64,000 nt of DNA from positions 1 to 64,000 of the forward strand of contig NZ_JANQOY010000090.1 in assembly GCF_028285565.1 (NCBI RefSeq). Reading direction: 5' to 3'. A program made the position numbers and the translations under genes. Source of the DNA: Acaryochloris sp. IP29b_bin.148. Its GTDB lineage: Bacteria; Cyanobacteriota; Cyanobacteriia; Thermosynechococcales; Thermosynechococcaceae. The notes below the pieces were generated by a model. The model did not search any database and had not been told where the DNA came from. It was given only the letters and a program-made list of their open reading frames with translations. Below, one piece after another: positions 12,874 through 64,000 of the stretch (positions within the stretch are counted from its first letter, which is position 1; each line of letters starts with the position of its first letter).

Positions 12874-13159
12874 AGACTCAATTCTGCACCTCTGCTGCTT
12901 AGAAGCTGTGACAGATCTTTCGCTGATTCACTGTTCGGCAGACAGACGATGGTCGGCTAATGCTAGGCTCACTGTATGTTGAATCGTCAACGCAACGTTG
13001 CTAGCCTATCTGGTGCCTGTTTAGCGGTTGATGTCAAAAAAGTCGTCTGAATAATCAATCAGATGCCTCTTTATCCCCTAAAATACCCACCTAGGCCATC
13101 CATATTACAGCATCGTCACTGAATGCCATCCCCCCTACTGAGGAGATGCTCACTCAAGG

Positions 13160-14248
13160 TTATTTGCGTTCAGGGTGATAGCGATCGCGGCTCGTCGAAC
13201 TCATCTGATTAATGGCTGCGATCAGTTGACTTAAACGTCCGTGATCGCGCTGATTAAAATAGAAGACTAATCGGGGTAAATGCTCTGTCTCATCTTGAAC
13301 TTGCTGGGGCTGAGGTTCTTGATGGTCGCTTTCTTCGGGTAAGGCGGCACTTTTACGAATCCGATCTTTGATCAGAATGTCGATAAATTCTTGGTTTAAC
13401 CACTGAACTTCGTCATCCGTCAATTCTTGATTCAGACGCATAACGAGGCGATCACCCACGTAGCGACTAGAGTGATAGACCTGATAAAACCCTGAGATGG
13501 CTGCACAAGCCGTTTCCAGATTGTCTGTGATCGTATACAAACGATGATCGTCAGCACTGATTAACCCTCCTGCAATTAAATGCTTGTGGATATAGTGATT
13601 CCAGTCGTGCCAGTAGTGAGACCCAGGCGGTTCAACCAGAACGACGGGCACAGGAGGAGATTTTCCTGTTTGGCTCAGGGTGAGGCATTCAAAGGCTTCA
13701 TCTTGGGTGCCAAAGCCACCGGGAAAGAGTGCGATCGCATCCGTTTCCCGAAGAAAAAATAGTTTGCGAGTAAAGAAATACTTAAAATCGATCAACTTCT
13801 CATCCCCCGCAATAAACGGGTTGGAATCTTGCTCAAAAGGGAGCTGAATATTGAGTCCAAAGGACTTCTCTGCCCCTGCACCTTGATTGCCCGCCTCCAT
13901 AATGCCACCCCCTGCTCCCGTCATCACCATAAATCCCTGCTGGGTTACACAGCGAGCAAAGTCAACGGCCATTTGGTAGGCCGCACTGTGAGTGGGTAAA
14001 CGAGAGGACCCAAAAATAGAAATCTTACGGACATGCCGATAGCGATGAAAAACTTGAAATCCTTGCTCCAGGTCCTGCAAGGCGGCGGATAAGATTTTCC
14101 AGTCCAACCGATCGAGATCTTCCTCAGCCATATTCAGTAACGTCTCCATGGCCTGTAAGATCAAAGCGCCATGCTTTAGCTCCGGTAAAACCTCTAAAAA
14201 ATGATGTAGACGCTGCTGTAAATCAGTGGGCTGATGGGATGGCATCAT
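13160..14248 (-). CDS. LOG-family (lysine decarboxylase-like, TIGR00730) protein
   Basis: A 362-residue protein with a Rossmann-type LOG domain at about 75-265: ISIFGSSRLPT, VMTGAGGGIMEAGNQGA, and the diagnostic ALFPGGFGTQDEAFE near the middle. LOG enzymes release free cytokinin-like bases from nucleotide phosphates, and bacterial members act as nucleotide 5'-monophosphate phosphoribohydrolases. This protein is longer than the 180-200-residue stand-alone enzymes. It has an N-terminal helical region (1-70) and a C-terminal extension of about 90 residues, features of the large cyanobacterial subgroup. The substrate is unknown. A terminator separates it from trxA upstream. Confidence 0.8.
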   Translation of the reverse strand: MMPSHQPTDLQQRLHHFLEVLPELKHGALILQAMETLLNMAEEDLDRLDWKILSAALQDLEQGFQVFHRYRHVRKISIFGSSRLPTHSAAYQMAVDFARCVTQQGFMVMTGAGGGIMEAGNQGAGAEKSFGLNIQLPFEQDSNPFIAGDEKLIDFKYFFTRKLFFLRETDAIALFPGGFGTQDEAFECLTLSQTGKSPPVPVVLVEPPGSHYWHDWNHYIHKHLIAGGLISADDHRLYTITDNLETACAAISGFYQVYHSSRYVGDRLVMRLNQELTDDEVQWLNQEFIDILIKDRIRKSAALPEESDHQEPQPQQVQDETEHLPRLVFYFNQRDHGRLSQLIAAINQMSSTSRDRYHPERK

Positions 14249-17546: not shown

Positions 17547-19184
17547 TCAATTAATACAAGCGAACTCACCGGATTTTTGGCTGAACATTAAATTCTCTTT
17601 GTAGTCAATTGGACAATCCACAATGGTAGGTACATCTTGCGCTACAGCCGTTTTCAAAATGGGGATAAAGTCAGCACTCGATTCCACTCGGTAGCCTTTC
17701 AGGCCCATGCTTTCAGCTAGTCGGACAAAATCAGGATTACCAAACTTAATGAAGGAGGCTTCGCCATAATATTGTTGCTGTTTCCACTCAATCAAACCAT
17801 AACCACCATCATTAAAAATGATTGTTGTAAAAGCTACACCTAAGCGCAAGGCGGTTTCCAATTCCTGCATATTGATCATAAAGCCACCATCTCCTGTGAC
17901 CGCGATAATATGGCGGTCTGGGTAGACTAATTTGGCAGCTAATGCACCTGGAATCGCAATTCCCATGGCGGCAAAGCCATTGGAAATCAAGCAAGTATTC
18001 GGGCGATCGCAATGATAGTGGCGGGCTATCCACATTTTATGGGCTCCCACATCAGAAATAACGATATCCTCTGAGGCTAAAACCTCTCGCAAGTCATAAA
18101 TCAGCTTTTGAGGCCGCATCGGGAAATGATCGTCCTTCGCATATTGCTCGTAATCAGCACGAATTTGAGGCCGTAATTCTACGCCGTAGGGATCCGGTTT
18201 GCCATGACGATCGGCGCGGCGTAGAATCTCGATCAGGGAATCGGAGATATCACCCACTACCTCGGTTTTGGGAATATAGCTACTATCGATCTCAGCCGGC
18301 TCCGGCCCCACATGCACGATCGGAATCGTACCTTCTGGATTCCACTTTTTAGGAGAGAACTCAATTAAGTCATAGCCGACCGCGATCACCAGATCGGTTC
18401 GATCAAATCCACAGCTAATATAGTCTCGCTGCTGTAATCCCACAGTCCACAGAGCGAGGGGATGGGTATAGCGAATCACGCCTTTGCCCATAAAGGTGTT
18501 CGCTACAGGGATATTTAATTCTGTGGCAAATTGGGTGAGCGCTTCACTGGCATTGGCACGAATGGCACCATTCCCCACCAAAATCAAAGGATTAACGGCT
18601 TGAGAAATAACTTCTGCCGCCTCTTCTAAATTGCGAGGAGAGGCAAAACTGCGCTTAAGGGTATCAGGTTGCAAAGGATTCCCTTCGGCAGGCATTGCCG
18701 CAATATTTTCGGGTAAATCAATATGAACAGCGCCTGGCTTTTCTGCTTGGGCTCGTTTGAATGCCCGTCGGACAATTTCGGGCGTATTGCTGGGCCGCAC
18801 AATTTGGGAATTCCATTTGGTGACGGGATTGAACATGGCCACCAAATCCAGGTATTGGTGGGATTCAATATGCATGCGATCAGTACCGACTTGCCCGGTA
18901 ATGGCCACCAAAGGGGCTCCGTCCAGATTGGCATCCGCTACGCCGGTCATCAAGTTGGTGGCCCCCGGCCCTAGGGTGGAGAGACAGATGCCAGCGCGCC
19001 CCGTCAGTCGACCGTAGACATCGGCCATAAAGGCAGCGCCCTGTTCATGGCGAGTCGTGATGAATTGGATAGAAGAGTCTCTGAGCGCTTCTAGGACTTG
19101 GAGATTTTCTTCACCCGGTAGCCCAAAAATATATTCGACACCCTCATTTTCTAAACATTTGACCAACAATTCTGCTGTGTTCAT
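17547..19184 (-). CDS. ThDP enzyme, probable 2-oxoglutarate decarboxylase (acetolactate synthase-like)
   Basis: A 545-residue ThDP enzyme of the AlsS/IlvB superfamily. GLPGEENLQVL and RHEQGAAFMADVYGRLTG (catalytic Glu) lie in the PYR domain, and GDGGFMINMQE through FNDGGYG form the ThDP/Mg2+ motif in the PP domain. It would be called acetolactate synthase by similarity. However, it sits 10 bases downstream of a succinate-semialdehyde dehydrogenase gene, and this pair is the one shown in Synechococcus 7002 (A2770-A2771) to convert 2-oxoglutarate via succinic semialdehyde to succinate, closing the TCA cycle. Valine/FAD residues of true biosynthetic IlvB and an ilvN partner are not seen. I therefore favour 2-oxoglutarate decarboxylase. 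Confidence 0.8.
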   Translation of the reverse strand: MNTAELLVKCLENEGVEYIFGLPGEENLQVLEALRDSSIQFITTRHEQGAAFMADVYGRLTGRAGICLSTLGPGATNLMTGVADANLDGAPLVAITGQVGTDRMHIESHQYLDLVAMFNPVTKWNSQIVRPSNTPEIVRRAFKRAQAEKPGAVHIDLPENIAAMPAEGNPLQPDTLKRSFASPRNLEEAAEVISQAVNPLILVGNGAIRANASEALTQFATELNIPVANTFMGKGVIRYTHPLALWTVGLQQRDYISCGFDRTDLVIAVGYDLIEFSPKKWNPEGTIPIVHVGPEPAEIDSSYIPKTEVVGDISDSLIEILRRADRHGKPDPYGVELRPQIRADYEQYAKDDHFPMRPQKLIYDLREVLASEDIVISDVGAHKMWIARHYHCDRPNTCLISNGFAAMGIAIPGALAAKLVYPDRHIIAVTGDGGFMINMQELETALRLGVAFTTIIFNDGGYGLIEWKQQQYYGEASFIKFGNPDFVRLAESMGLKGYRVESSADFIPILKTAVAQDVPTIVDCPIDYKENLMFSQKSGEFACIN

Positions 19185-35725: not shown

Positions 35726-36184
35726 TCAACACTGGAGTGCGAGACGATCATGTGCTGAGGACTTGATGGCTTTATAGAGTCGTAATTCAGTCCCATCACT
35801 ATTCCAATACACCTGATCAAAAACGTGGTGGAGAATATAGAGCCCTCGACCACATTCACAGCCTGCTTCCGGCATAGCTTGAGGGGGCGGCGGAATCTGG
35901 CAGTAATCGGGAGGGGTAAAGCCTGCACCTTGGTCGGTAATAATCCACCAACACTGAGATTGACTAACGGAAAAGTGGACGAAAATAGTTTTATACGGAT
36001 CGAGCTTATTTCCATGCTTAGCAGCATTGACTAAAGCTTCTTGCAACCCGAGCCTCAATGCTGCTTCATCTTTGATCGGAACATCAGCTAATAAGCAGTC
36101 TAAGATGGGGCAGAGGTATAGGGTTGATGCAAAACTGACTTGTTGCCAGCGATGAGCTTTGGGCGGCAGCGAAGGGGCGATCAC
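35726..36184 (-). CDS. RsbW-like ATP-binding protein (HATPase_c, anti-sigma factor type)
   Basis: A 152-residue stand-alone GHKL ATPase domain. The N box is QEALVNAAKHGNK (about 48-60), the G1 box ITDQGAGFTPP, and the G2 region CGRGLYILHHVFD. This resembles serine kinases of the RsbW/SpoIIAB group that bind sigma factors or phosphorylate anti-anti-sigma factors. Cyanobacteria carry many such proteins, usually in PP2C/STAS switches. No STAS or PP2C partner is in view, so its target is unknown. A Cys-x-Cys (GCECGRG) in the lid is uncommon. Confidence 0.8.
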   Translation of the reverse strand: MIAPSLPPKAHRWQQVSFASTLYLCPILDCLLADVPIKDEAALRLGLQEALVNAAKHGNKLDPYKTIFVHFSVSQSQCWWIITDQGAGFTPPDYCQIPPPPQAMPEAGCECGRGLYILHHVFDQVYWNSDGTELRLYKAIKSSAHDRLALQC

Positions 36185-53287: not shown

Positions 53288-53800
53288 CTTTCTACGGTGG
53301 CTAATTGATGTCTTTGCTCTTTGGTACTCGGCAACATCATTGTCAACCTGAGCTGAACTAGCGCCAGAATTTCATTTGGCAGAGTGTTCGCGTCTCTTAA
53401 CCTTGGTTGGGGGGCAAGAGGTCGCTTGTACATTGTTTTGCTGCGTCAGCATCGGTAAAATCAGCGCTCCGAGAGTGGGACTCAATCCAAGAAGCCTGGT
53501 TTTGAGGTTGGGGTGGGTTAGACGGCTTTATCCTCGGGGTCTTTGCAACTGTGCGAGAGGTGTATAGCTTCACTCTCCTAGCAAATAAAAAATACTAAAT
53601 ATTGGCCTATTTGAAATCTTGAAAATTTTTAGGTTCTGGAATTTTAAATATTTTCCATTATTCTCTTTATGGAGTGAAGAAATAACATTAAAAAAGCCTG
53701 TAATTTTGGTTTAATAAGTAGAGAGTTGTTGGAAAATATTTTTATTCTGCCGCTAGTATGTGCAACTGATATTGAGTAAAAATCAAGAGGCAATCATGCA
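53288..53800 (+). other. AT-rich upstream region of the nine-gene cluster
   Basis: About 510 bases; the last 230 are distinctly AT-rich (AAAATATTTTTATTC type). No gene and no recognised operator was seen. A TTGGAA-N19-TAGTAT pair at about 53729-53760 is the nearest thing to a promoter, with a long spacer. The high AT content agrees with a regulated promoter upstream of gene 53801. Confidence 0.4.
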
Positions 53801-54655
53801 ATGACTAAGCGAATTCTATGTTGTATCTCTGAATGGGGATACTGGGGGGAAGAATTTGTCGGTCCTTACGATGTTTTAATTGATGCTGGCTACACCATTG
53901 ACTTTATGACGGCCTACGGTAGAAAACCGCCAGCATTACCACCCAGCATGGAAGAGGGGTATCTCGATCCGCCGCTGGATAAAGCGGTAACGGATGCACA
54001 TTACGCTAAGCGAACCATTGAAATTGATAAATCAGATTTGTTGAATAGCCCAATTAATCTATCGAAATGGTTCCCACCTTTACCTTATTTTAATGGTCCC
54101 AAATTTGGACATGAATTAGAGGCTTATTACAATAAAAGAAATATCTGCTGGGATGAATTAGATAAGTACGATGCGCTGCTACTGCCGGGTGGTTCTGGCC
54201 CAATGGTAGACATGGTCAATAATGAGCGATTACATGATGTCATCTTGGGATTTTTATCTAAGAAAAAGTTGATTGCCGCTGAATGTTATTCGGTGACTTG
54301 TTTGGCATTTGCTCGCGATTGGACAGAACGCAAAAGCATTATTTGGGGCAAACATGTCACCGGGCATGCCCGCGAGTACGACTATAAAGACGGGACTGGT
54401 TTTGCCCAAATGTATGACTACGAAGGCAAGCCGATGAATACCTCCGCCAATTTCGGTCCTCCCTTCTATCCACTGGAATATATTCTGCGGGATGCAGTCG
54501 GTCCTGACGGTCAGTATCACGGCGGGGTGGGGCACACCATATCCACGATTTTGGACTATCCCTTCCTGACCGGACGATCGACCCAAGACTCCAAGTTAGT
54601 GGGGGAATTAATGGTTCAGGTATTAGAGAAGGGCTTAAAACGCTACGGCTGGTAG
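53801..54655 (+). CDS. DJ-1/PfpI superfamily protein (cluster gene 1)
   Basis: A 284-residue protein of the class I glutamine-amidotransferase-like fold. The parts visible are GYWGEEFVGPYDVLIDAGYT (Glu on the first helix), ALLLPGGSGPMVDM (oxyanion loop PGG), and the nucleophile elbow AAECYSVTCLAFARDW, where Cys is followed by Tyr not His. Residues 200-284 hold FGPPFYPLEYIL and VGHTISTILDYPFLTGRS, a helical extension. It is longer than DJ-1 (189) and nearer to Hsp31/HchA-like sizes. Such proteins may act as glyoxalases, deglycases or amidases. It begins the co-directional run that continues to 62.4 kb. Confidence 0.8.
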   Translation: MTKRILCCISEWGYWGEEFVGPYDVLIDAGYTIDFMTAYGRKPPALPPSMEEGYLDPPLDKAVTDAHYAKRTIEIDKSDLLNSPINLSKWFPPLPYFNGPKFGHELEAYYNKRNICWDELDKYDALLLPGGSGPMVDMVNNERLHDVILGFLSKKKLIAAECYSVTCLAFARDWTERKSIIWGKHVTGHAREYDYKDGTGFAQMYDYEGKPMNTSANFGPPFYPLEYILRDAVGPDGQYHGGVGHTISTILDYPFLTGRSTQDSKLVGELMVQVLEKGLKRYGW

Positions 54656-54745
54656 TTTTTTCAAAAATTAAAGCCCCCCGATTGCTCCCTAATTGAAGTT
54701 CCAAAAATAAAACAAGTTTATTTAGCGTTGACGTCATTCGGACTT

Positions 54746-56452
54746 ATGAAGGACAGAACCGGTCGTTTTGGCATTCTTGAACAATTTCAAGCAGACGGTA
54801 TCACCCATATCTTTGGCAATCCAGGCACGGTCGAGCAGGGATTTTTGGATGCCTTAGGCAGTTTTGAAGACCTCAAATACATCCTGACCCTGCAAGAAAC
54901 TATTGCCCTGATGACGGCAGATGGCTATGCCCGAGCTACCCAAAAACCAACCATCGTCCAAATTCACAGCACACCCGGTTTGGGCAATACCATTGGGGCG
55001 CTGTATCAGGCCATGCGCGGCCATTCACCGCTAGTGGTGATTGGGGGTGATGCTGGCATTCGCTATCAGGCCATGGATGCCCAGATGGCTGGGGATTTAG
55101 TGGCGTTTGCCGAGCCCGTCACCAAGTGGTCGACGATGGTGATGGACCCCAATTCTCTGCTGCGGGTGCTCCGGCGGGCGATCAAAATTGCTGCGACTCC
55201 GCCGATGGGGCCTGTTTATGTTTGTTTGCCCCAGGACATTATGGATTTCCCTGTGGTCGAGGAGGTGGTGCCGACCAGTCTGCCTTCTACCCGAGTGGTA
55301 CCGGATGAGGCGTCCCTGCTGCAAGCGGCAGATCTGTTACTGAGCGGTCAAGAACCAATGATTTTTGTGGGGGATGGCATTGCCTATTCTGGAGCACAAT
55401 CCGAACTGACACGGGTGGCTGAACTTTTAGGGGCACAAGTGTGGAGTGCAGATTCAGGCGAGGTGAATATGAGCCTGGAACATCCCCTCTACCAGGGCTC
55501 CACCGGCCATATGTTTGGAGAGCAAAGTCTACCGATTACTGCGAAAGGAGATGCCAATCTGATTTGCGGCACCTATGTGCTGCCAGAGGTCTTCCCCCTA
55601 TTAACGAATATCTTTGCTGAAGGTGCGAAGACGGTTCATATCGATCTGAATGCCTACGAAATTGCCAAAAATCATCCGGTGGATTTGGGGCTAGTCAGCG
55701 ATCCGAAGTTGACCTTGGCTAAATTAGCCGATCTGCTGGATGCCAAGATGTCTCCAGAAGCAAAGCAAGCAGCAGCCGAGCGATCGCAAGCTATCGGAGC
55801 AGCGAAACAGGCGGCGAAGACGACTCAACTAGAGAAGGATCGGGCAGTCAAAGGGCAAGAACCCCTCCACTTTGCCACCTTCATGGTGGAGTTGGCGGCC
55901 AGATTACCGAAGAATACCCTGATTTTCGATGAAGCGCTGACAAATTCTCCTCCAATCAGTCGATACTTCCCGATTACCGAACCGGGTTCTTACTTCCAGA
56001 CTCGCGGCGGGTCTCTCGGCGTTGGTATTCCAGGTGCGATCGGGGTTAAAATTGCCCACCCAGATCGCCCGGTGTGGGGATTTACAGGGGATGGCGGTGC
56101 CATGTATACGATTCAGGCCTTATGGACGGCAGCTCGCCATAATGTCGATGCCAAGTTTGTGATTTGCAATAACAGTTCCTATCGGCTTTTGCAGCTAAAT
56201 ATCCAGCAGTATTGGCAATCACAAAGCATTCCCAAACACGAGTTTCCCCTCAGTTTTGATCTCTCTAAACCGGCCATCCATTTTGCCCAAATGGCTCAAT
56301 CAATGGGCGTTCAAGGGGTACGAGTGGAGAAGACGGCTGAGATTATTCCGGCGATCGAGCAAGCTTTAGCTCATCCGGGACCATTCCTGATCGATTTAGT
56401 GCTGGAGGGGGATGTTCATCCGGAGTTAATCGGTATTCGGTGTGGTCAATAG
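54746..56452 (+). CDS. ThDP-dependent decarboxylase/lyase, benzoylformate decarboxylase-like (cluster gene 2)
   Basis: The ATG at 54746 gives 568 residues (a TTG at 54728 is less likely). The fold is that of benzoylformate decarboxylase: HIFGNPGTVEQGF (25-28 NPGT), LTLQETIALMTADGYAR with cofactor Glu51, VQIHSTPGLGN with His74, MGPVYVCLPQDIMD, and the ThDP/Mg motif FTGDGGAMYTIQALW with CNNSSYR. Compared with the Pseudomonas putida enzyme, active-site Ser26 is Thr here, His70 is kept, and the second catalytic His (281) is not found at the same place. It therefore probably works on a 2-oxo acid or forms an acyloin, but the substrate should differ from benzoylformate. The next gene starts 12 bases after its stop. 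Confidence 0.8.
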   Translation: MKDRTGRFGILEQFQADGITHIFGNPGTVEQGFLDALGSFEDLKYILTLQETIALMTADGYARATQKPTIVQIHSTPGLGNTIGALYQAMRGHSPLVVIGGDAGIRYQAMDAQMAGDLVAFAEPVTKWSTMVMDPNSLLRVLRRAIKIAATPPMGPVYVCLPQDIMDFPVVEEVVPTSLPSTRVVPDEASLLQAADLLLSGQEPMIFVGDGIAYSGAQSELTRVAELLGAQVWSADSGEVNMSLEHPLYQGSTGHMFGEQSLPITAKGDANLICGTYVLPEVFPLLTNIFAEGAKTVHIDLNAYEIAKNHPVDLGLVSDPKLTLAKLADLLDAKMSPEAKQAAAERSQAIGAAKQAAKTTQLEKDRAVKGQEPLHFATFMVELAARLPKNTLIFDEALTNSPPISRYFPITEPGSYFQTRGGSLGVGIPGAIGVKIAHPDRPVWGFTGDGGAMYTIQALWTAARHNVDAKFVICNNSSYRLLQLNIQQYWQSQSIPKHEFPLSFDLSKPAIHFAQMAQSMGVQGVRVEKTAEIIPAIEQALAHPGPFLIDLVLEGDVHPELIGIRCGQ

Positions 56453-56464
56453 GAGGGGCTGAGG

Positions 56465-56923
56465 ATGACGAACGATTACCTTTCTGCCGAGGATCGGCTG
56501 GCCATTTATGAGCTGAATTCCCGCTACTTTTATACGCTTGACGGCCTTACAGTCCTGATTCCGGGTGATGCTGCTAAAAACTGGGCCGAGACCTTTACAG
56601 CCAATGGCACCTTTTCGATTGTGCGGTGGGATCGACAAGTGGTGATGGAGGTGAGCGGTCAAACCGCATTGGCGGATGCCTTCCGCACCTTTCCCGATAT
56701 CGAGACCACTCGTCATTGGAGTAATAACTTTTTTATTGTCACCGATGGCGCAATCGTCAAGTCTGGCTGCTACATCGTGGCGATGGATATTAAGCAAATT
56801 CCCGCCAGTTTAGAGCGGACCGGGCTGTACGAGGACGAGTTGGCTAAAGTTGGCGACGATTGGAAGTTTAAGCGTCGGACCTTGATTCTGGATCCTGCGA
56901 GTCCAGGAGCGACGGATTCCTAA
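56465..56923 (+). CDS. SnoaL_4-type NTF2-fold protein (cluster gene 3)
   Basis: A 152-residue protein of the NTF2 superfamily, SnoaL_4-like: LSAEDRLAIYELNSRYFYTLDG at the N-terminus, then NWAETFTANGTFSIV, ALADAFRTFPDIETTRHWSNNFF and WKFKRRTLILDP. Enzymes of this group are dehydratases, isomerases or cyclases on ring compounds. The usual Asp/His pairs can be placed (TLD and RHW), but not proved. A GGAGGGGCTGAGG site precedes the ATG, 12 bases after the decarboxylase stop, so both are co-translated. Confidence 0.8.
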   Translation: MTNDYLSAEDRLAIYELNSRYFYTLDGLTVLIPGDAAKNWAETFTANGTFSIVRWDRQVVMEVSGQTALADAFRTFPDIETTRHWSNNFFIVTDGAIVKSGCYIVAMDIKQIPASLERTGLYEDELAKVGDDWKFKRRTLILDPASPGATDS

Positions 56924-56983
56924 GGTTTTATTGACTATTGCAGATGAGATCGCATTCATTCCCCTAACCAGAGAGATACCATC

Positions 56984-57682
56984 GTGATTCACCAGCTTAT
57001 CTTTGCCCATCCCAAACCCGGTATGAACGAGCCAGAATTTCAAGACTACTGGGTTAACGTCCATGCGGTGAAATATGCCAGCAAGATTACCCAAATCAAG
57101 AAATACCTGATTGATACTCGTATCCCCTTCGGTCCAGAGCCAGAGGATCCTCGCTTTAGCGGTGTGGCAGAAATTTGGCTTAACAACGAGAAAGAACAAC
57201 TAGAATCGCTACAGTCCGATGCCTTTTTGCAAGGAGCGCGGTTAGATGAGCCGCACTGGGCCGCCTTCTGGCGAACGGTGGTCTTGGATACCGATACCCA
57301 TGTGTTGTTGGAGGGGGCACCCCGGAGTCGCGACGAGCAGGGCATCAAATTATTTGCCATGGTGAAGCGCAAAGCAGGATTACCGCTCAAAACCTTCCGA
57401 CGCTATAGCCTCGATATTCACGGATCGCTAGATCTTAAATTGCCCGGATTAAAGCGCTATTACCAATGCCATGCTCGCGATGGGCTGTATGCCATGGGCG
57501 AACCCTTATTGGATATGGTGGCCATGCTGTGGTTCGACAGCACGGATGCGCTGCAAGCTGCCCTGAATTCTCCAGAAAATGCCGCATCGGCAGCAGATCT
57601 CGAAAATTTTATCGAAATGAAATATGCCTATACCTTTGTCACCCAAGAGCATTGGGTGATTGGGCCAGAAGCCCGCGCTTGA
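56984..57682 (+). CDS. Tandem EthD-like dimeric alpha/beta barrel protein (cluster gene 4)
   Basis: A 232-residue protein that starts at a GTG. It consists of two similar halves of the EthD/stress-responsive barrel: residues 1-105 (MIHQLIFAHPKPGMNEPEF, YWVNVHAVKYA, KKYLIDTRI, FWRTVVLDTDTH) and 118-232 (KLFAMVKRKAGLPLKTFRRY, LDIHGSLDL, LKRYYQCHARD). The repeats share a R/Y-W/S-x-x-x-H helix followed by a KKY/KRY strand. EthD-type proteins assist polyether-ether degradation or act as cyclases/aromatases. The duplication makes a single-chain pseudo-dimer. The gene lies 60 bases after gene 3. Confidence 0.75.
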   Translation: MIHQLIFAHPKPGMNEPEFQDYWVNVHAVKYASKITQIKKYLIDTRIPFGPEPEDPRFSGVAEIWLNNEKEQLESLQSDAFLQGARLDEPHWAAFWRTVVLDTDTHVLLEGAPRSRDEQGIKLFAMVKRKAGLPLKTFRRYSLDIHGSLDLKLPGLKRYYQCHARDGLYAMGEPLLDMVAMLWFDSTDALQAALNSPENAASAADLENFIEMKYAYTFVTQEHWVIGPEARA

Positions 57683-57755
57683 AAGGGCTATCCCAATTGT
57701 TAAGCTCCTCGACCGTCTTACTAAGTCCGACGCAGTCTGATTAGGAACTTCCCTC

Positions 57756-58193
57756 ATGATGTATACCCAACAAACTGACTATAAAACCGTCATTCGCGAT
57801 CGCTTTTACCACCAAGCAGTCGATGGCAATCATCTTGAGCTTATCGATGAGATTTTCTCACCCGATTGCAAATTCTATGCCAGTGGAGAGCAGGAGGCAG
57901 TGGGGCGAGACGCCTTCAAAGACTATCTCAGTCTGTTTCGCGAGGCGCTAAATTTCCGCCATAGCGTCGACGACCAAATCGCTGAAGGGGATAAAGTCAC
58001 GACCCGATGGACCGTTCGGGGCAAACATACCAAGTCCCTATTGGGATATGAAGGGCGTGGCAACGAGGTCCTCTATTCCGGTATTTCGATTTTTGAATTT
58101 AATGGCTCAGGCCAGGTTGTAGAGGTATGGAGCGCGTTCGACCAACTGGGTTTGCACAAGCAGCTCGGAGCAGCTGAACCCACCCCATTTTGA
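57756..58193 (+). CDS. SnoaL-like cyclase/isomerase fold protein (cluster gene 5)
   Basis: A 145-residue NTF2-fold protein of the SnoaL/ester-cyclase type. It reads VIRDRFYHQAVDGNHLELIDEIFSPDC (start of helix pair), GRDAFKDYLSLFREAL, FRHSVDDQIAEGDKVTTRWTVRGKH and GISIFEFNGSGQVVEVWSAFD. The last part is typical of SnoaL-like cyclases, with the R-W-T strand and the acidic position at the end. It starts with ATGATG, and which Met is used cannot be decided. It differs from gene 3 in subfamily, so the cluster has two different stand-alone NTF2-fold enzymes. Confidence 0.8.
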   Translation: MMYTQQTDYKTVIRDRFYHQAVDGNHLELIDEIFSPDCKFYASGEQEAVGRDAFKDYLSLFREALNFRHSVDDQIAEGDKVTTRWTVRGKHTKSLLGYEGRGNEVLYSGISIFEFNGSGQVVEVWSAFDQLGLHKQLGAAEPTPF

Positions 58194-58220
58194 ATTTGGC
58201 ACAGTGAGGGAGACTCGACG

Positions 58221-59741
58221 ATGGATGCAGAAGCAATTGTGATTGGCAGCGGATTTGGCGGCTCAGTTGCAGCCTTGCGACTGGGACAGGCTGGTATCAA
58301 AACGATGGTATTAGAACGAGGGCGATGGTGGACCATTGATGACCCCACCACCAACAGCACCTTTGCCACTTTTCGTGACATTGATCAGCGGGCAGAGTGG
58401 TTGAACGATACCGGTCTTTCCCAAACCCCTGCCTACGAAGGAACACCCATTGATAAATATGTCGGCGTTTTGGAGGTGGTGGAGCATGGGGAATATAAAT
58501 TCCTCGTGGGTTCTGGTGTGGGAGGTGGTTCCCATGCTTATGGCGGCATCTTAATTCAGCCCCCTCAGGAACTGTGGGGGAAGGTCTTTCCCGATCAGGT
58601 CTCCTATAGGGAGATGGACGCTGTCTACTTTCCCCGCGTTCATCAGGAAATCGGGTCTTCTCTCATTCCCGACGATATTCTTGAGAGCCAGTATTACCTC
58701 GGTCTTAAGGTGTTGGTGGAGCAGGCTGCAAAGGCTGGCTTCCCGATGGTGAAGTCCACCTCCAACCAGATGAAAGATGGCATGACCAAATTTATGATGG
58801 GGATTGACTGGGACATTGTCCGGGAGGAAATCGCGGGGAAGAAGGTTCCTTCCACCATCGCCGCTGAATTCTGGTTTGGGCAAAACAGCGGTGCCAAGCA
58901 AACCCTAGACCAAAACTACCTAAAGCGAGCACAAGAAACCGGCTCGGTTGAGATTAAGACCCTGCATTGGGTTCAGCGGGTGGCGGCTCTGCCTGAAGGC
59001 GGCTATCAAGTCTTTGTGAATGTGATCGATGAGCAAGGAGCAGTCGTCGAGCAAAAGGTGCTCACCTGCCGCTCACTGTTTATGGCCGCAGGAACCCTGG
59101 GAACGACTGGGCTGCTGCTCAAAGCCAAGGTGAAAGGGGATTTGCCTCATATCCACGAGGGGATTGGCCAAGAACTCGGCAATGACGGCGATACCTTTGT
59201 GATTCGCTCCAATCTGGATGAAACCACGAACTCCCATCTTGGAGGGCCGGGGGCGATCGTGATTATGAATTATGAAAACCCCATTTACCCCTGCGTAATG
59301 ATGCGGGCTCCGCTGCCCCGCTTTGAGACCGACTATCCAAGATGGAATGCGATGGGGACCTTTATTTTTAGTATGACTCCCCATCGAGGGTCGCTCACCT
59401 ACAACGCAGACACCGACCGAATTGATCTCAACTACGATATCGATACCCAAGCGAAAGCAGCGGCTCAGCAGTTGGTGGAACGAATGACCGATGCTAGCGG
59501 CGGTGATAGTTCTCCCGTCTCGTCGACGATTACGGGTCATCAGCTCGGTGGTGCTGCCATGGGACAGGTCTGCGATACCTGCGGGCGGGTAAAAGGGTAC
59601 TCGAATCTATATGTCGTCGATGGGGCGTTAATCCCTGGCTCTAGTACGTGCGTTAACCCAGCGCTGACGATTGCTGCAGTGGCTGAGCGATGTCTGGACC
59701 GCATCATTCCTGAAGACCTGAAATCGGTGGCTAGCGGTTAG
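58221..59741 (+). CDS. GMC-type FAD oxidoreductase, cholesterol-oxidase-like (cluster gene 6)
   Basis: A 506-residue flavoprotein. The FAD dinucleotide motif is AIVIGSGFGGSVAALRLG (residues 5-22), followed by VLERGRWW. The interior has VGSGVGGGSHAYGGILIQPP and FMAAGTLGTTGLLLKA. The C-terminal catalytic part carries TGHQLGGAAMGQVCDTCGR and YVVDGALIPGSSTCVNPALT, that is, the His/Asn pair of the GMC family in the order of cholesterol oxidase. There is no Tat or Sec signal, so it is probably cytoplasmic. It should oxidise an alcohol or sterol-like ring substrate using O2 or a quinone. It lies 27 bases after gene 5. Confidence 0.85.
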   Translation: MDAEAIVIGSGFGGSVAALRLGQAGIKTMVLERGRWWTIDDPTTNSTFATFRDIDQRAEWLNDTGLSQTPAYEGTPIDKYVGVLEVVEHGEYKFLVGSGVGGGSHAYGGILIQPPQELWGKVFPDQVSYREMDAVYFPRVHQEIGSSLIPDDILESQYYLGLKVLVEQAAKAGFPMVKSTSNQMKDGMTKFMMGIDWDIVREEIAGKKVPSTIAAEFWFGQNSGAKQTLDQNYLKRAQETGSVEIKTLHWVQRVAALPEGGYQVFVNVIDEQGAVVEQKVLTCRSLFMAAGTLGTTGLLLKAKVKGDLPHIHEGIGQELGNDGDTFVIRSNLDETTNSHLGGPGAIVIMNYENPIYPCVMMRAPLPRFETDYPRWNAMGTFIFSMTPHRGSLTYNADTDRIDLNYDIDTQAKAAAQQLVERMTDASGGDSSPVSSTITGHQLGGAAMGQVCDTCGRVKGYSNLYVVDGALIPGSSTCVNPALTIAAVAERCLDRIIPEDLKSVASG

Positions 59742-59822
59742 CGATCGGCCCGGATTGAGTTCAGCTCATCCGGCACTCAACGCAATCAGTCCTCTGCAAA
59801 CAGTCATTTGGAGTCAAAAATT

Positions 59823-61277
59823 GTGAGCCAAGAAGATACCCGGAAAGTTGCGACCGCATGGTTTGATGCCCTCGATCGTGGCGATATGGACACCGCGATT
59901 GCCTGCATGGCGGAGGATATCGAGTGGGTGAATTTGCCCAAAATTCCTGGGGTAAGCGATATTATCCCTTGGATAGGCACAGCTCACGGCATCCCGGAAG
60001 TGCTGAAGCAGTTCTCCACTCGCGACGGCATTGTAGAGGTCAAGCAGTTCAAGCCCGTCGATCTGGTGGTCGAAGGCGACGTGGCCGTAGGAACTGTTCA
60101 TGATATTTCGACGGTATTGGCGACGGGATTGGACTTTGAAATTGTCTTTGCCACCTGGATGGAAGTCCGCAACGGCAAAATCGCCAAATGGAAATCCTAT
60201 TGCGATCCAGCACCCATTATTGCTGCCTTTCGCGGGGATGTGTCCACTCGCCTGATCGAAGCTGTCCAGCAGGAAGATGTCGAGACGCTGAAAACCTTGC
60301 TGAATGCTAATGCAGGCGACCCCAATACTCGGGACCCAGACACTGGGCTGACCTTACTAATGATGGCCGCTTGCCAAGCCCATAAAGACATGGTGCAGAT
60401 TCTGCTAGAGGCCGGTGCCGATGTGTGGACCGCCGATAGCAAGACGGGGGCAACGGCCTTACATAAAACCTGCCAAGGGGGAAATCTTGAGATCGCCAAA
60501 CTGCTGCTCGATCACGGTGCGTTTATTGATGCGGTCACCCCAACCATGGGGCACACCCCAATTATGGATGCTCTCTGGTATAAGTGGCCGGAGCTGGTCA
60601 AACTCCTGGTCGACCATGGCCAAAACCTCTATTTTGGGACTCACTACGGCTTTGCTCTGGAGGACCATATCGCCTTTGAACTCAATGTTAACCAAGGGGA
60701 AGAGAAGCAGAAATTCGAAACCATTAAGGCCGTAATTGATAGCGGTAAAGCTCGGGACCAAAATGCGATCGCAGAACAAACCGTGATGGCGAGCACCAAC
60801 AAAGGCGATCTGGACGCGGTGAAACAGCTGATTGCCTCAGGCGCAAACGTTAACACCGTCTATCCCCATATGAATTCCTTCCTGGATGGACATACTCCCC
60901 TGATTGTGGCCGCTCGCGACAACCATGGCGACATTGTCCAGGAGCTGCTCAAAGCTGGAGCCCATGTGCGGGTGGAAGACTGGGTTTTCAAAGGGGCTCC
61001 CATCCATAAGGCCACCTACAACGGTAACCCCAGCATTCTCAAAATGCTGGTGGAGCATCCTAATATCGATCTGGATATCCAAGGACCCATTAACGGCTAC
61101 ACCCCTCTCCACGATGCCCTCTGGCATGGATTTGTGGAATGTGCGGAAATTTTGGTGAATGCCGGGGCGCGCCTCGATCTGCGCGGCCATGACGGCAAGT
61201 TACCGCTGGATATTGCCATTGAGGTGTGTGGTGAAACCTCTGACATTGTCAATCTGATTCGTTCAAAATTGCCATAG
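59823..61277 (+). CDS. SnoaL-like domain fused to ankyrin repeats (cluster gene 7)
   Basis: The GTG at 59823 (MSQEDTRKVATAWFDALDRG) is preferred to the TTG at 59808 because a TTGGAG site is 8 bases upstream; it gives 484 residues. Residues 1-130 are a SnoaL/limonene-epoxide-hydrolase-like NTF2 domain (TAIACMAEDIEWVN, IAKWKSYCDPAP). Residues about 140-480 are ankyrin repeats (GLTLLMMAACQAHKDMVQILLEAGA; ATALHKTCQGGNLEIAKLLLDHGA; GHTPLIVAARDNHGDIVQELLKAGA; GYTPLHDALWHGFVECAEILVNAGA), around nine in all. Such a fusion is rare to my knowledge. The ankyrin part may bind a partner enzyme from the same cluster. Confidence 0.8.
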   Translation: MSQEDTRKVATAWFDALDRGDMDTAIACMAEDIEWVNLPKIPGVSDIIPWIGTAHGIPEVLKQFSTRDGIVEVKQFKPVDLVVEGDVAVGTVHDISTVLATGLDFEIVFATWMEVRNGKIAKWKSYCDPAPIIAAFRGDVSTRLIEAVQQEDVETLKTLLNANAGDPNTRDPDTGLTLLMMAACQAHKDMVQILLEAGADVWTADSKTGATALHKTCQGGNLEIAKLLLDHGAFIDAVTPTMGHTPIMDALWYKWPELVKLLVDHGQNLYFGTHYGFALEDHIAFELNVNQGEEKQKFETIKAVIDSGKARDQNAIAEQTVMASTNKGDLDAVKQLIASGANVNTVYPHMNSFLDGHTPLIVAARDNHGDIVQELLKAGAHVRVEDWVFKGAPIHKATYNGNPSILKMLVEHPNIDLDIQGPINGYTPLHDALWHGFVECAEILVNAGARLDLRGHDGKLPLDIAIEVCGETSDIVNLIRSKLP

Positions 61278-61297
61278 GCATTGCTCATCAAATTGAG

Positions 61298-61321
61298 GAG
61301 AATCGAGTTAATTCGATTCTC
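61298..61321 (+). repeat. Hairpin between cluster genes 7 and 8
   Basis: GAGAATCGA at 61298-61306 pairs perfectly with TCGATTCTC at 61313-61321 around GTTAAT. No T-run follows, so it is more likely an RNA processing or stability element than a terminator. Confidence 0.55.
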
Positions 61322-61364
61322 GACTCTAGGCTATCTAAATTAATACTATTAAAGGGGGAAAACT

Positions 61365-61793
61365 GTGAGTATTTTAGCTGAAGTCAAGGATATTTCTGTA
61401 TCTTTTGCGGTTAAGGATCTAGATGCAACCGCCAAGTGGTATCAAGATTATTTGGGATTTAAACAAGTCCTCTTTCGCGACTTTCCAGAATACGGGACGC
61501 GGATTGTATTTTTGGAGATTAACGACATCTCCATTGAGCTAATTGAAGATCAGAAATGGACTTCCATCGATCGGCCCAGCCCCCCACAGCACACAACTGT
61601 TCAGGGTGTGAGTCAAGTTCGGTTTATGGTTCATGACATTGAAAAAGTCGTAGAGCGGGTGAAGGCTCAACCCGAAATTGAAATTGCTTGGGACTTGATC
61701 GTGGTGGAAGATATTGGCTTTAAGGAATTTTTTATTCGCGATAACGAAGGAAATATTCTTCAGTTTGCCGAAACATTCGAGCCCAAGAAATAG
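61365..61793 (+). CDS. VOC-family (glyoxalase/dioxygenase fold) protein (cluster gene 8)
   Basis: A 142-residue vicinal-oxygen-chelate protein starting at a GTG (AAAGGGGG upstream). Two beta-alpha-beta-beta-beta units are seen: VSFAVKDLDATAKWYQDYLGF with ISIELIEDQ, and VRFMVHDIEKVVERVKAQPE with FIRDNEGNILQFAE. The N-terminal metal His of glyoxalase I is replaced (SVSFAV), and the Glu residues at ELIE and FAE remain. It therefore may be an epimerase, lyase or dioxygenase relative, or bind rather than turn over its ligand. Confidence 0.8.
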   Translation: MSILAEVKDISVSFAVKDLDATAKWYQDYLGFKQVLFRDFPEYGTRIVFLEINDISIELIEDQKWTSIDRPSPPQHTTVQGVSQVRFMVHDIEKVVERVKAQPEIEIAWDLIVVEDIGFKEFFIRDNEGNILQFAETFEPKK

Positions 61794-61842
61794 CTCACTT
61801 TTATATCAAGGAATAACAGAAGTTAGCATTTTTTAAGTGGGT

Positions 61843-62418
61843 ATGGCAATGAAACTGAAAGATAAAAAGATTGGAATCTTAATTGAAAGCGACTTTTATG
61901 AACACGAGATTTGGTATTACCACTATCGCTTTCTAGAAGAGGGGGCAGATCTGCACTTTATGACCCGCCTCTGGGGGCAGCCCTCTATTACCTTTAAGGG
62001 ACATGAGTATCACGCTCCCTTTGACTGCAATGAGTCTTTCGAAGGTATGGATGACGAGACGCTGGCCAGCTTCGCGGCCATTATTGTCCCTTCAGCGATG
62101 GTGTCTGATCGCCTCCGCTACACCGACGACGTTACGAAATTGCCCCCAGCGACCAAGTTCCTCAAGCGGGCCTTTGCCAACCCCAATATTCTCAAGGGCA
62201 TTATTTGCCACGGGATGTGGTTAGTGGCTCCCGCCACCGAATTAGTCAAGGGTCGCCCCATCACTTGCCACAACAACCTTCACGGCGATGTACTGGCCTA
62301 CGGAGCCCTCTATCAAGACCAGGATGTAGTGGTGGATGGCGATTTAGTCACGGGTCGGACAGGGGGCCATGCTCATCTGTTCGCGGCCAAGATTATCGAA
62401 ATTCTGGCAGAGGCATAG
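61843..62418 (+). CDS. DJ-1/PfpI superfamily protein (cluster gene 9)
   Basis: A PfpI-like protein of about 190 residues; starts at 61837 (GTG), 61843 and 61849 (ATG) are all in frame, and the family N-terminus KLKDKKIGILIESDFYEHE begins at the third. The nucleophile elbow is canonical (GIICHGMWLVAPATELVKG). The loop that usually reads PGG is VPSAMVSD here, so the oxyanion pocket differs from other members, including gene 1 of this cluster. PfpI/DJ-1 proteins act as glyoxalases, chaperones or isocyanide hydratases. It closes the nine-gene run; glgX follows 103 bases later. Confidence 0.8.
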   Translation: MAMKLKDKKIGILIESDFYEHEIWYYHYRFLEEGADLHFMTRLWGQPSITFKGHEYHAPFDCNESFEGMDDETLASFAAIIVPSAMVSDRLRYTDDVTKLPPATKFLKRAFANPNILKGIICHGMWLVAPATELVKGRPITCHNNLHGDVLAYGALYQDQDVVVDGDLVTGRTGGHAHLFAAKIIEILAEA

Positions 62419-62521: not shown

Positions 62522-64000
62522 ATGATCCAGGCTACGCTGACCACTCCAACCAAACTGTATTCCCTCTCTGCCGGAACTTCCTATCCCTTGGGGGCAACCG
62601 TAAAACCTGACGGGGTAAATTTCTCCTTGTTTTCAGAAGTCGCCACCGGAGTTGAGTTGCTTCTATTTGACGGCCATAGCGATTTAGAGCCGTTTCAAGT
62701 CGTTCAATTAGACCCCATCGTCCATAAAACCTTTCACTTCTGGCATGTCTTTGTCAAAGGGTTACCAGCGGGTACCCACTACGCCTATCGGGTCGACGGT
62801 CCCAACAATCCGAGCGGGGGTGATCGTTGCGATCGCAATAAAGTCCTGCTCGATCCCTATTCCAAAGGCAACAACAAAACCCTCTGGAACCGGGGTAAGG
62901 CCTGTTTGCCAGGGGATAACCTCACCAGCTCGATGCGCTGTGTAGTGATCGATATCGATGATTATGACTGGGAAGGCGATCGGCCCTTAGGCAGGCCCAT
63001 GAACGAAACCATCGTCTACGAAATGCATGTCGGTGGTTTTACCAAATCCCCCACTTCCAAGGTCAAACATCCTGGCACCTTTGCAGGCGTGATTGAGAAA
63101 ATCCCCTATTTGCAGGAGCTGGGGGTTACGGCTGTTGAACTCCTACCTATCTTTGAATTTGACGACACCGAAGTTCTGCGAGTGGTGGATGGCAAGCCCC
63201 TGACCAACTACTGGGGCTATAGCACCATGAGTTATTTTGCACCTCACCCCAGCTATTGCGTCAATCCTGAGGCGGGCGATCATGTACGGGAATTTCGGGA
63301 TATGGTCAAAGCCCTTCACCAAGCTGGAATCGAAGTGATCCTAGACGTTGTGTTCAACCATACCGATGAAGGTAACCATCAAGGTCCCGTCTTTTCCTTC
63401 AAGGGGTTGGACAATCGCACCTATTACTATTTATCACCTGAAGATCGGCAGTACTACTACGACTACACGGGCTGTGGCAATACCTTTAACTGCAATCACC
63501 CCATTGGAGAGATGTTTATTCTCGATTGTCTGCGCTACTGGGTGCAGGAGATGCATGTGGATGGCTTCCGCTTCGATGAAGGATCAGTGCTCTCTCGTGG
63601 CGAAGACGGTACTCCTCTAGAACATCCACCCGTGATTTGGGCGATTGAGCTGGATGCTGTACTGGCCAATGCCAAAGTGATTGCCGAAGCTTGGGATGCA
63701 GCGGGCCTTTACCAAATTGGCTACTTCCCTGGTTATCGTTGGGCGGAATGGAATGGCAAGTATCGGGATGCGATTCGTCGCTTCGTCAAGGGCGATCCGG
63801 GAATTGTGGGGGAGGTTGCCAGCCGGATCACAGGCAGCGCCGACCTCTACCAAGCGCGCCAACATTCCCCGGTCAACAGCGTTAACTTTATCGTTGCTCA
63901 CGATGGCTTTACCCTTTATGACCTGGTGGCTTACAACGGCAAGCATAACGAGGCCAATGGCGAAGGTAATCGCGACGGCATCGACGACAACCTGAGCTGG
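62522..64000 (+). CDS. glgX: Glycogen debranching enzyme GlgX (isoamylase), cut by window edge
   Basis: The frame is open from ATG 62522 to the window edge (493 codons). An N-terminal CBM48-like domain (YPLGATVKPDGVNFSLFSEVA in family form, seen as LGATVKPDGVNFSLFS) precedes a GH13 domain. GH13 motifs are VILDVVFNHT, DGFRFDEGSVLSRG with the nucleophile Asp, and VIAEAWDAAG with the acid Glu. It removes alpha-1,6 branches from glycogen. Typical length is about 700 residues, so some 200 are missing. An AAGGA site precedes the ATG; there is no terminator between it and gene 9, so it may be read with the cluster, though its function is basic glycogen metabolism. Confidence 0.93.
   Translation, partial: MIQATLTTPTKLYSLSAGTSYPLGATVKPDGVNFSLFSEVATGVELLLFDGHSDLEPFQVVQLDPIVHKTFHFWHVFVKGLPAGTHYAYRVDGPNNPSGGDRCDRNKVLLDPYSKGNNKTLWNRGKACLPGDNLTSSMRCVVIDIDDYDWEGDRPLGRPMNETIVYEMHVGGFTKSPTSKVKHPGTFAGVIEKIPYLQELGVTAVELLPIFEFDDTEVLRVVDGKPLTNYWGYSTMSYFAPHPSYCVNPEAGDHVREFRDMVKALHQAGIEVILDVVFNHTDEGNHQGPVFSFKGLDNRTYYYLSPEDRQYYYDYTGCGNTFNCNHPIGEMFILDCLRYWVQEMHVDGFRFDEGSVLSRGEDGTPLEHPPVIWAIELDAVLANAKVIAEAWDAAGLYQIGYFPGYRWAEWNGKYRDAIRRFVKGDPGIVGEVASRITGSADLYQARQHSPVNSVNFIVAHDGFTLYDLVAYNGKHNEANGEGNRDGIDDNLSW

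Follow-up and report, generated by a model that had tools for sequence, protein, structure and literature searches.

The closest described relative of the gene run considered here, which begins in a 64,000-base stretch of Acaryochloris sp. IP29b_bin.148 (the window), is the icfG operon of Synechocystis sp. PCC 6803 (slr1852-slr1862), whose DJ-1 member is presumably slr1854 and whose control by cyAbrB1 is reportedly the subject of a 2024 paper cited in PMC11368403. In the parts of the literature available to us, slr1852-1862 is one salt-repressed operon including an epimerase, an anti-sigma antagonist, GlgX and IcfG (PMC8670252), and Slr1861 is an anti-SigC factor, with slr1856 and slr1859 as antagonists, slr1857 as isoamylase and slr1860 as IcfG, in an operon termed a possible carbon hub (PMC12329169); those parts assign no role to its metabolic genes (PMC8670252, PMC12329169). 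The icfG operon and icfG-type clusters share with the window run an AGE-like epimerase, GlgX, STAS and DJ-1, and the clusters have EthD, SnoaL and VOC proteins nearby, as does the window. Unlike icfG, the window run has a DJ-1 gene (DJ1a) paired with a thiamine diphosphate (ThDP) enzyme gene, a GMC flavoenzyme and a SnoaL/ankyrin protein, the order DJ1b-GlgX-AGE, and a STAS domain fused to AGE from which the conserved Ser has gone.

We read the run as an operon-like, eleven-gene member of a gene family linked to alpha-glucan metabolism and exchanged across phyla, partly on plasmids, with a proposed pathway. Taken whole, this reading has about an even chance of being right: homology and linkage, computed from sequence as were gene content and conservation, make a highly probable part of it, and the reaction scheme, in which each reaction and the order of steps come from family knowledge, is a doubtful one.

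The eleven-gene run and icfG-type operons

The window comprises bases 1-64000 of a 128,058-base contig (C114) from a genome estimated to be 87% complete. Nine open reading frames occupy 53801-62418, all on the + strand with gaps of 12-90 bases, as an earlier note on this DNA had it, and Pfam agrees with the family names given there to all nine genes. The cluster had been taken to end at 62418; it continues with a GlgX-type isoamylase gene, 76 bases 3' of DJ1b, that crosses the window end, and closes outside the window with a gene for an AGE-like protein fused to STAS (AGE::STAS), the last of eleven co-directional genes. The parts are as follows.

53288..53800, + strand: upstream gap, A+T-rich (G+C comparison)
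53801..54655, + strand: DJ1a, ThiJ/DJ-1-like protein, 284 amino acids (PF17124, PF01965)
54746..56452, + strand: ThDP enzyme related to benzoylformate decarboxylase, 568 amino acids from ATG (three ThDP domains; alternative TTG start at 54728)
56465..56923, + strand: SnoaL_4 protein, 152 amino acids (Pfam; retained in the relatives L016, L017, L023 and L024)
56984..57682, + strand: EthD2, two EthD domains, 232 amino acids (Pfam, model and fold matches)
57756..58193, + strand: SnoaL protein, 145 amino acids, outside the conserved set (Pfam; not in L016, L017, L023 or L024)
58221..59741, + strand: cholesterol-oxidase-type GMC flavoenzyme, 506 amino acids (Pfam, PDB similarity)
59808..61277, + strand: SnoaL_2 and ankyrin protein, 489 amino acids (Pfam)
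61365..61793, + strand: VOC/glyoxalase protein, 142 amino acids (Pfam)
61837..62418, + strand: DJ1b, PfpI-type DJ-1, 193 amino acids (Pfam DJ-1/PfpI)
62495 (TTG start; or ATG at 62525)..C114:64627, + strand: GlgX-type isoamylase (CBM48, GH13, isoamylase C-terminal domain)
C114:64754-66910, + strand: AGE::STAS, 718 amino acids (AGE-like body, C-terminal STAS)

The upstream gap, described before as an AT-rich region of about 510 bases, measures 513 bases and has 40.2% G+C against 49.5% for the window, a value as low being found in 0.6% of 513-base windows; it is a probable regulatory region. The promoter scan found no promoter-like site in 53288-53800, and counts of promoter- and terminator-like sites were no higher than shuffled expectation. 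We infer a single transcript for the whole run. A chance gene run was considered and rejected. The gene upstream of the run matches no family, and the one after AGE::STAS, on the opposite strand, is clpP-like by eye.

Five clusters (L065-L068 and L072) are icfG-type, with DJ-1 at 31-33%, AGE at 53-56% and GlgX at 48-50% against the window proteins; RsbW-like proteins were matched in at least four and SpoIIE in at least three. The gene order of L067 is DJ-1, AGE, STAS, GlgX, STAS, SpoIIE, RsbW (STAS by eye and alignment) and agrees with what the available parts of both papers say of the Synechocystis icfG operon, and L065 has a 745-amino-acid protein with EthD and SnoaL domains. By protein comparison the 3' end of the window run (DJ-1, GlgX, AGE, STAS) is homologous to these operons, so that the earlier statement that no such cyanobacterial pathway is described is not supported for this end, whose relatives are, in the parts available, published for carbon control in Synechocystis (PMC8670252, PMC12329169).

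As in the icfG type, an AGE-type epimerase gene and a GlgX gene occur together in the run. A STAS domain with a phosphorylatable Ser does not: AGE::STAS has Asp in the Ser column, located by alignment to RsfB, with the conserved position taken from SpoIIAA numbering. Of 13 free-standing STAS proteins, 12 have Ser in this column, as do 2 of 10 fused ones (Thr in a further 3 of the 10); the residues in the five window-type fused proteins are Asp, Ile, Thr, Glu and Asp. No SpoIIE/PP2C phosphatase or RsbW kinase gene adjoins the run, the downstream genes being read to C114:75000 together with the upstream gene; elsewhere the genome has 4 SpoIIE and 14 HATPase_c_2 matches, several of them weak. From its residues, the fused STAS would no longer be switched by phosphorylation. 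Because half of its genes have icfG relatives but two defining features are missing, the run is a homologue of the icfG-type operon and not a member. The earlier claim that no regulator is present is not supported either, STAS being a regulatory domain, here fused to the AGE-like protein.

An RsbW/SpoIIAB-like HATPase_c_2 protein is encoded 18 kb upstream of the cluster (window 35726-36184, - strand) and could be a partner-switching kinase.

Distribution in cyanobacteria and on plasmids

Conservation was followed in a panel of 386 cyanobacterial genomes. Leptolyngbya SIOISBB (L016) and LEGE 07170 (L017) carry 10 of the 11 genes in the same order at 85-94% identity, lacking the SnoaL gene 57756-58193 alone, and this gene is missing between its neighbours in all four other cyanobacterial versions read (those two, L023 and L024). 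The synteny comparison suggested by the earlier note thus found neighbours that are not unrelated, and the single conserved multi-enzyme unit that it proposed is upheld for ten genes and not for this SnoaL gene. Genome G123 has seven genes near one contig end (VOC more distant, 31%) and DJ1b-GlgX-AGE::STAS on a different contig, and in G005 a VOC gene comes after the ThDP gene. Remnants of VOC and DJ-1 genes with stops lie within the G005 run (L024:11423-11608 and 13043-13246), signs of local duplication and decay; the GlgX gene of G291 (L112:1894-4067) and the GMC gene of Leptolyngbya SIOISBB (L016:10764-12267) are split over two frames, by sequencing error or decay.

At E 1e-30, DJ1a occurs in 12 of the 386 genomes (own counted), and in 12/12 a ThDP gene lies no more than 2 kb away, with at least 55% identity in 11 and 33% in G143. 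GlgX and AGE share the DJ1a stretch in the window genome, G005, G291 and G342, are by coordinates about 21-29 kb from DJ1a in G229 and G231, and about 750 kb away in G286. DJ1b is at least 67% identical in 8/386 genomes, with AGE and GlgX close by in six; as for the other two, the G080 contig ends at the gene, and AGE and GlgX are both absent from the 11-kb contig of G013. L069 and L070 (G382, G306) have nothing beyond AGE at 30-37% and DJ1b at 34-40%. EthD2 is rare, with a strong match in three genomes (own counted) and short weak matches (30-35%, about 50 residues) in seven more, which were set aside; five of their clusters, L065-L068 and L072, were read, and G074 and G251 left unread. In a metagenome-assembled genome labelled Synechococcus, EthD2 (41%) adjoins SnoaL/ankyrin (42%) near a contig end (L019:387-2611), other cluster genes being absent in 11 kb.

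Among 72,556 plasmids searched by tblastn, the ThDP enzyme (E 1e-80) was found in 14 records and AGE (E 1e-20) in 17, and all 14 belong to the 17. These plasmids span Bacteroidota, Pseudomonadota, Deinococcota, Actinomycetota and Cyanobacteriota, and 13 of the 14 ThDP-AGE pairs are within 12 kb, that of N. edaphicum being about 23 kb apart across the origin; Streptomyces NBC_01014, 01766, 01267 and 01387 score near-identically and are best treated as one. Eleven ThDP records (three NBC records were left out) and three AGE-only records were read. DJ1a adjoins the ThDP gene in 11/11, and alpha-glucan genes (GlgX, GlgE, GlgB, GlgA, MalQ, TreS or alpha-amylase family) are annotated in 11/11, in stretches of 33-51 kb. 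The AGE-only records (Gloeocapsopsis, Gloeothece PCC 7822, Nostoc NIES-3756) have DJ-1, AGE and GlgX together. EthD2 occurs in 12 plasmid records, of which all nine at 46% or more belong to the ThDP/AGE set and three weaker ones lie outside it; the SnoaL/ankyrin protein belongs to the set in 7/7 records, and the window-type GMC in 1/8. A control ThDP enzyme, encoded at window 17547-19184, was found in 304 records, with none in the AGE set among the 60 matches listed. This second three-domain enzyme (- strand) is 27-29% identical to the cluster ThDP enzyme, and its relatives on plasmids carry the annotation acetolactate synthase large subunit.

The cassettes of Nostoc, Streptomyces, Deinococcus, Runella and Gemmobacter resemble the window run in DJ1a-ThDP, DJ1b, AGE and mostly GlgX, several also in EthD2 and SnoaL/ankyrin, and differ from it in having another GMC subfamily or none, and additional GlgE, TreS, GlgB and MalQ. 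STAS is free-standing in Runella, Deinococcus and most Streptomyces cassettes, and fused in Gemmobacter and Nostoc C052 as in the window; the SnoaL and ankyrin parts, fused in the window protein, are two adjacent genes in Streptomyces NBC_01387 and NBC_00334 (L078:32725-34205, L086:36306-37786). The GMC proteins of Gemmobacter, Runella, Deinococcus and Nostoc ATCC 53789 have the Pfam domains of the window GMC, yet no BLAST match at 1e-4. Because plasmid GMC proteins come from another subfamily or are unannotated, a GMC oxidation step is, as judged from gene content, replaceable or dispensable and not universal. No published name for these DJ1a-ThDP/AGE cassettes was found in the open-licence literature, a scope outside which most subscription papers fall.

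Two genes for Nif11-like leader peptides (L076:17367-18027) lie inside the cassette of Nostoc ATCC 53789, flanked by EthD2 and two GMC genes. A carbohydrate kinase and glycerol-phosphate-oxidase-like genes lie beside the G291 set (L112:16584-19659) and an aquaporin gene beside that of Nostoc C052 (L077:18289-19098), together a possible glycerol link.

Regarding history, the DJ1a tree groups the window clade with a Deinococcus plasmid copy (100/99), apart from G123 and G005, while the ThDP tree groups the window with G123 (99/98) and Deinococcus with Streptomyces and Nostoc C052 (100/100). Some forks of the ThDP tree are unresolved, and its long rows are G143, Gemmobacter and two own paralogues. 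Because the trees disagree, the two genes, though adjacent, appear to differ in history, which fits exchange.

Similarities and residues of individual proteins

The likenesses to benzoylformate decarboxylase (BFDC) and cholesterol oxidase proposed in the earlier note are borne out by the best PDB matches, that of the GMC protein being full length (E ~1e-75), but identity with either enzyme is not, the ThDP enzyme reaching 304 of the 493 bits and the GMC protein 127 of the 850 bits of the NCBI equivalog cut-offs; both names thus denote family likeness only. In the alignment, the ThDP enzyme retains the cofactor Glu and the first catalytic His of BFDC, has Thr for Ser at the first active-site position, and is without His where the second catalytic His falls. 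The aligned BFDC chain is a variant; wild-type BFDC has the second catalytic His. Because the first His and the Glu are kept and the second His is not, the enzyme probably acts on a substrate other than that of BFDC, and a plain benzoylformate decarboxylase was rejected. For BbmA and CsmA, ThDP proteins among its PDB-search matches, no useful paper was found.

The EthD2 model (pLDDT 80, from 5 sequences) resembles bacterial chalcone isomerase (TM 0.50-0.56) and an anthrone-oxidase-like protein (TM 0.67), over the whole length but with a large root-mean-square deviation of 5-9 A, and one half resembles methylmuconolactone isomerase; these matches are compatible with activity as a ring isomerase or an oxygenase. 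The C-terminus of AGE::STAS is STAS-like by alignment to free-standing STAS proteins, and its body is homologous (53%) to a Streptomyces AGE-family protein that matches PF07221 (5e-20). A three-sequence AGE-like profile finds cellobiose 2-epimerase at 5e-4 with 38 residues aligned, and AGE::STAS is the sole AGE match in its own genome. Its structure model (pLDDT 50) was discarded.

Proposed pathway and rival explanations

The surrounding genes point towards stored alpha-glucan as the carbon source; the ring compound or 2-oxo acid put forward in the earlier note is a conjectural product. On the best reading, inferred from the enzyme families, the pathway is built around ThDP carbon-carbon chemistry and would make or clear a dicarbonyl or an oxidised sugar. 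The 3' module (DJ1b, GlgX, AGE-like epimerase, STAS) is the icfG-homologous part, and the 5' module (DJ1a-ThDP, EthD2, SnoaL/ankyrin) would be a companion pathway. GlgX would open stored glycogen, the AGE-like protein isomerise or epimerise the freed sugar end, and a flavoenzyme, GMC in the window run, oxidise that sugar; the keto-sugar would be a substrate for isomerisation or dehydration by EthD, SnoaL and VOC proteins, the ThDP enzyme would break or make a carbon-carbon bond next to a carbonyl, and the DJ-1 proteins would handle reactive dicarbonyls.

Several results weigh against this reading. AGE::STAS itself matches no Pfam family, its assignment leaning on the Streptomyces homologue, and the AGE relative of Nostoc ATCC 53789 reaches no more than 34%. 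Within 20-kb stretches around DJ1a, no GlgX match was found in 5 of 12 genomes (G370, G080, G278, G143, G286): AGE is likewise unmatched in G370, G080 and G278 (DJ1b 38% in the last), and G143 has relatives of DJ1b at 34% and of AGE at 37%. No GMC gene is annotated in 6 of the 11 plasmids read (five Streptomyces and N. edaphicum), and S. omiyaensis gave no GMC match. The alpha-glucan count on plasmids stands without a base rate for random plasmid stretches.

A stress unit without a new product, in which EthD, SnoaL, VOC and DJ-1 proteins sense ligands and protect against carbonyls, glycogen being mobilised and glycation damage repaired as carbon or water status shifts, is an unlikely alternative with evidence of its own: the set has partner-switching genes as neighbours in Deinococcus, in S. 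omiyaensis and Streptomyces NBC_01387 and NBC_00334, and, as RsbW-like and STAS genes, in Runella; ion antiporter or low-temperature genes are close by in some plasmids, and slr1852-1862 responds to salt in the part of the paper available (PMC8670252). What stays constant, however, is the pairing of DJ1a and a ThDP enzyme of catalytic type, and GMC is present in 5/11 plasmids; a sensor role needs neither. It is improbable that the set makes a secreted natural product with the glycogen genes merely as sugar supply. The Nif11-like genes of Nostoc ATCC 53789 and the gamma-butyrolactone genes ScbA/ScbR near Streptomyces sets would suit such a specialised-metabolite cluster, but genes of these types are absent from the window and the L016, L017 and L024 stretches read, and a gene reading of the eleven-gene run found no transporter. 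Sterol or hopanoid oxidation, suggested by the cholesterol-oxidase likeness of the GMC protein and a TIGR02096 match, under cut-off, of the ketosteroid-isomerase-like SnoaL protein 57756-58193, is very improbable given the GMC bit score, the single plasmid record that combines this GMC type with the set and the lack of that SnoaL gene in relatives, and a sterol pathway was rejected.

Returning to the glucan-linked pathway, we propose, tentatively and as somewhat likelier to fail than to hold, that at least five phyla have an undescribed, partly plasmid-borne route from debranched storage glucan to a new sugar metabolite, oxidised or carbon-carbon-rearranged, its enzymes being an epimerase-like protein, a flavin oxidase that can be replaced, and a ThDP enzyme; in this cyanobacterial lineage the 3' half would be common with the icfG operon, its phospho-switch lost. 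The comparison ties the icfG operon to a DJ-1/ThDP plasmid cassette of five phyla, a link absent from the available parts of the icfG papers. If true, the unexplained half of icfG would gain specific enzymes for testing, and glycogen would have a new outlet.

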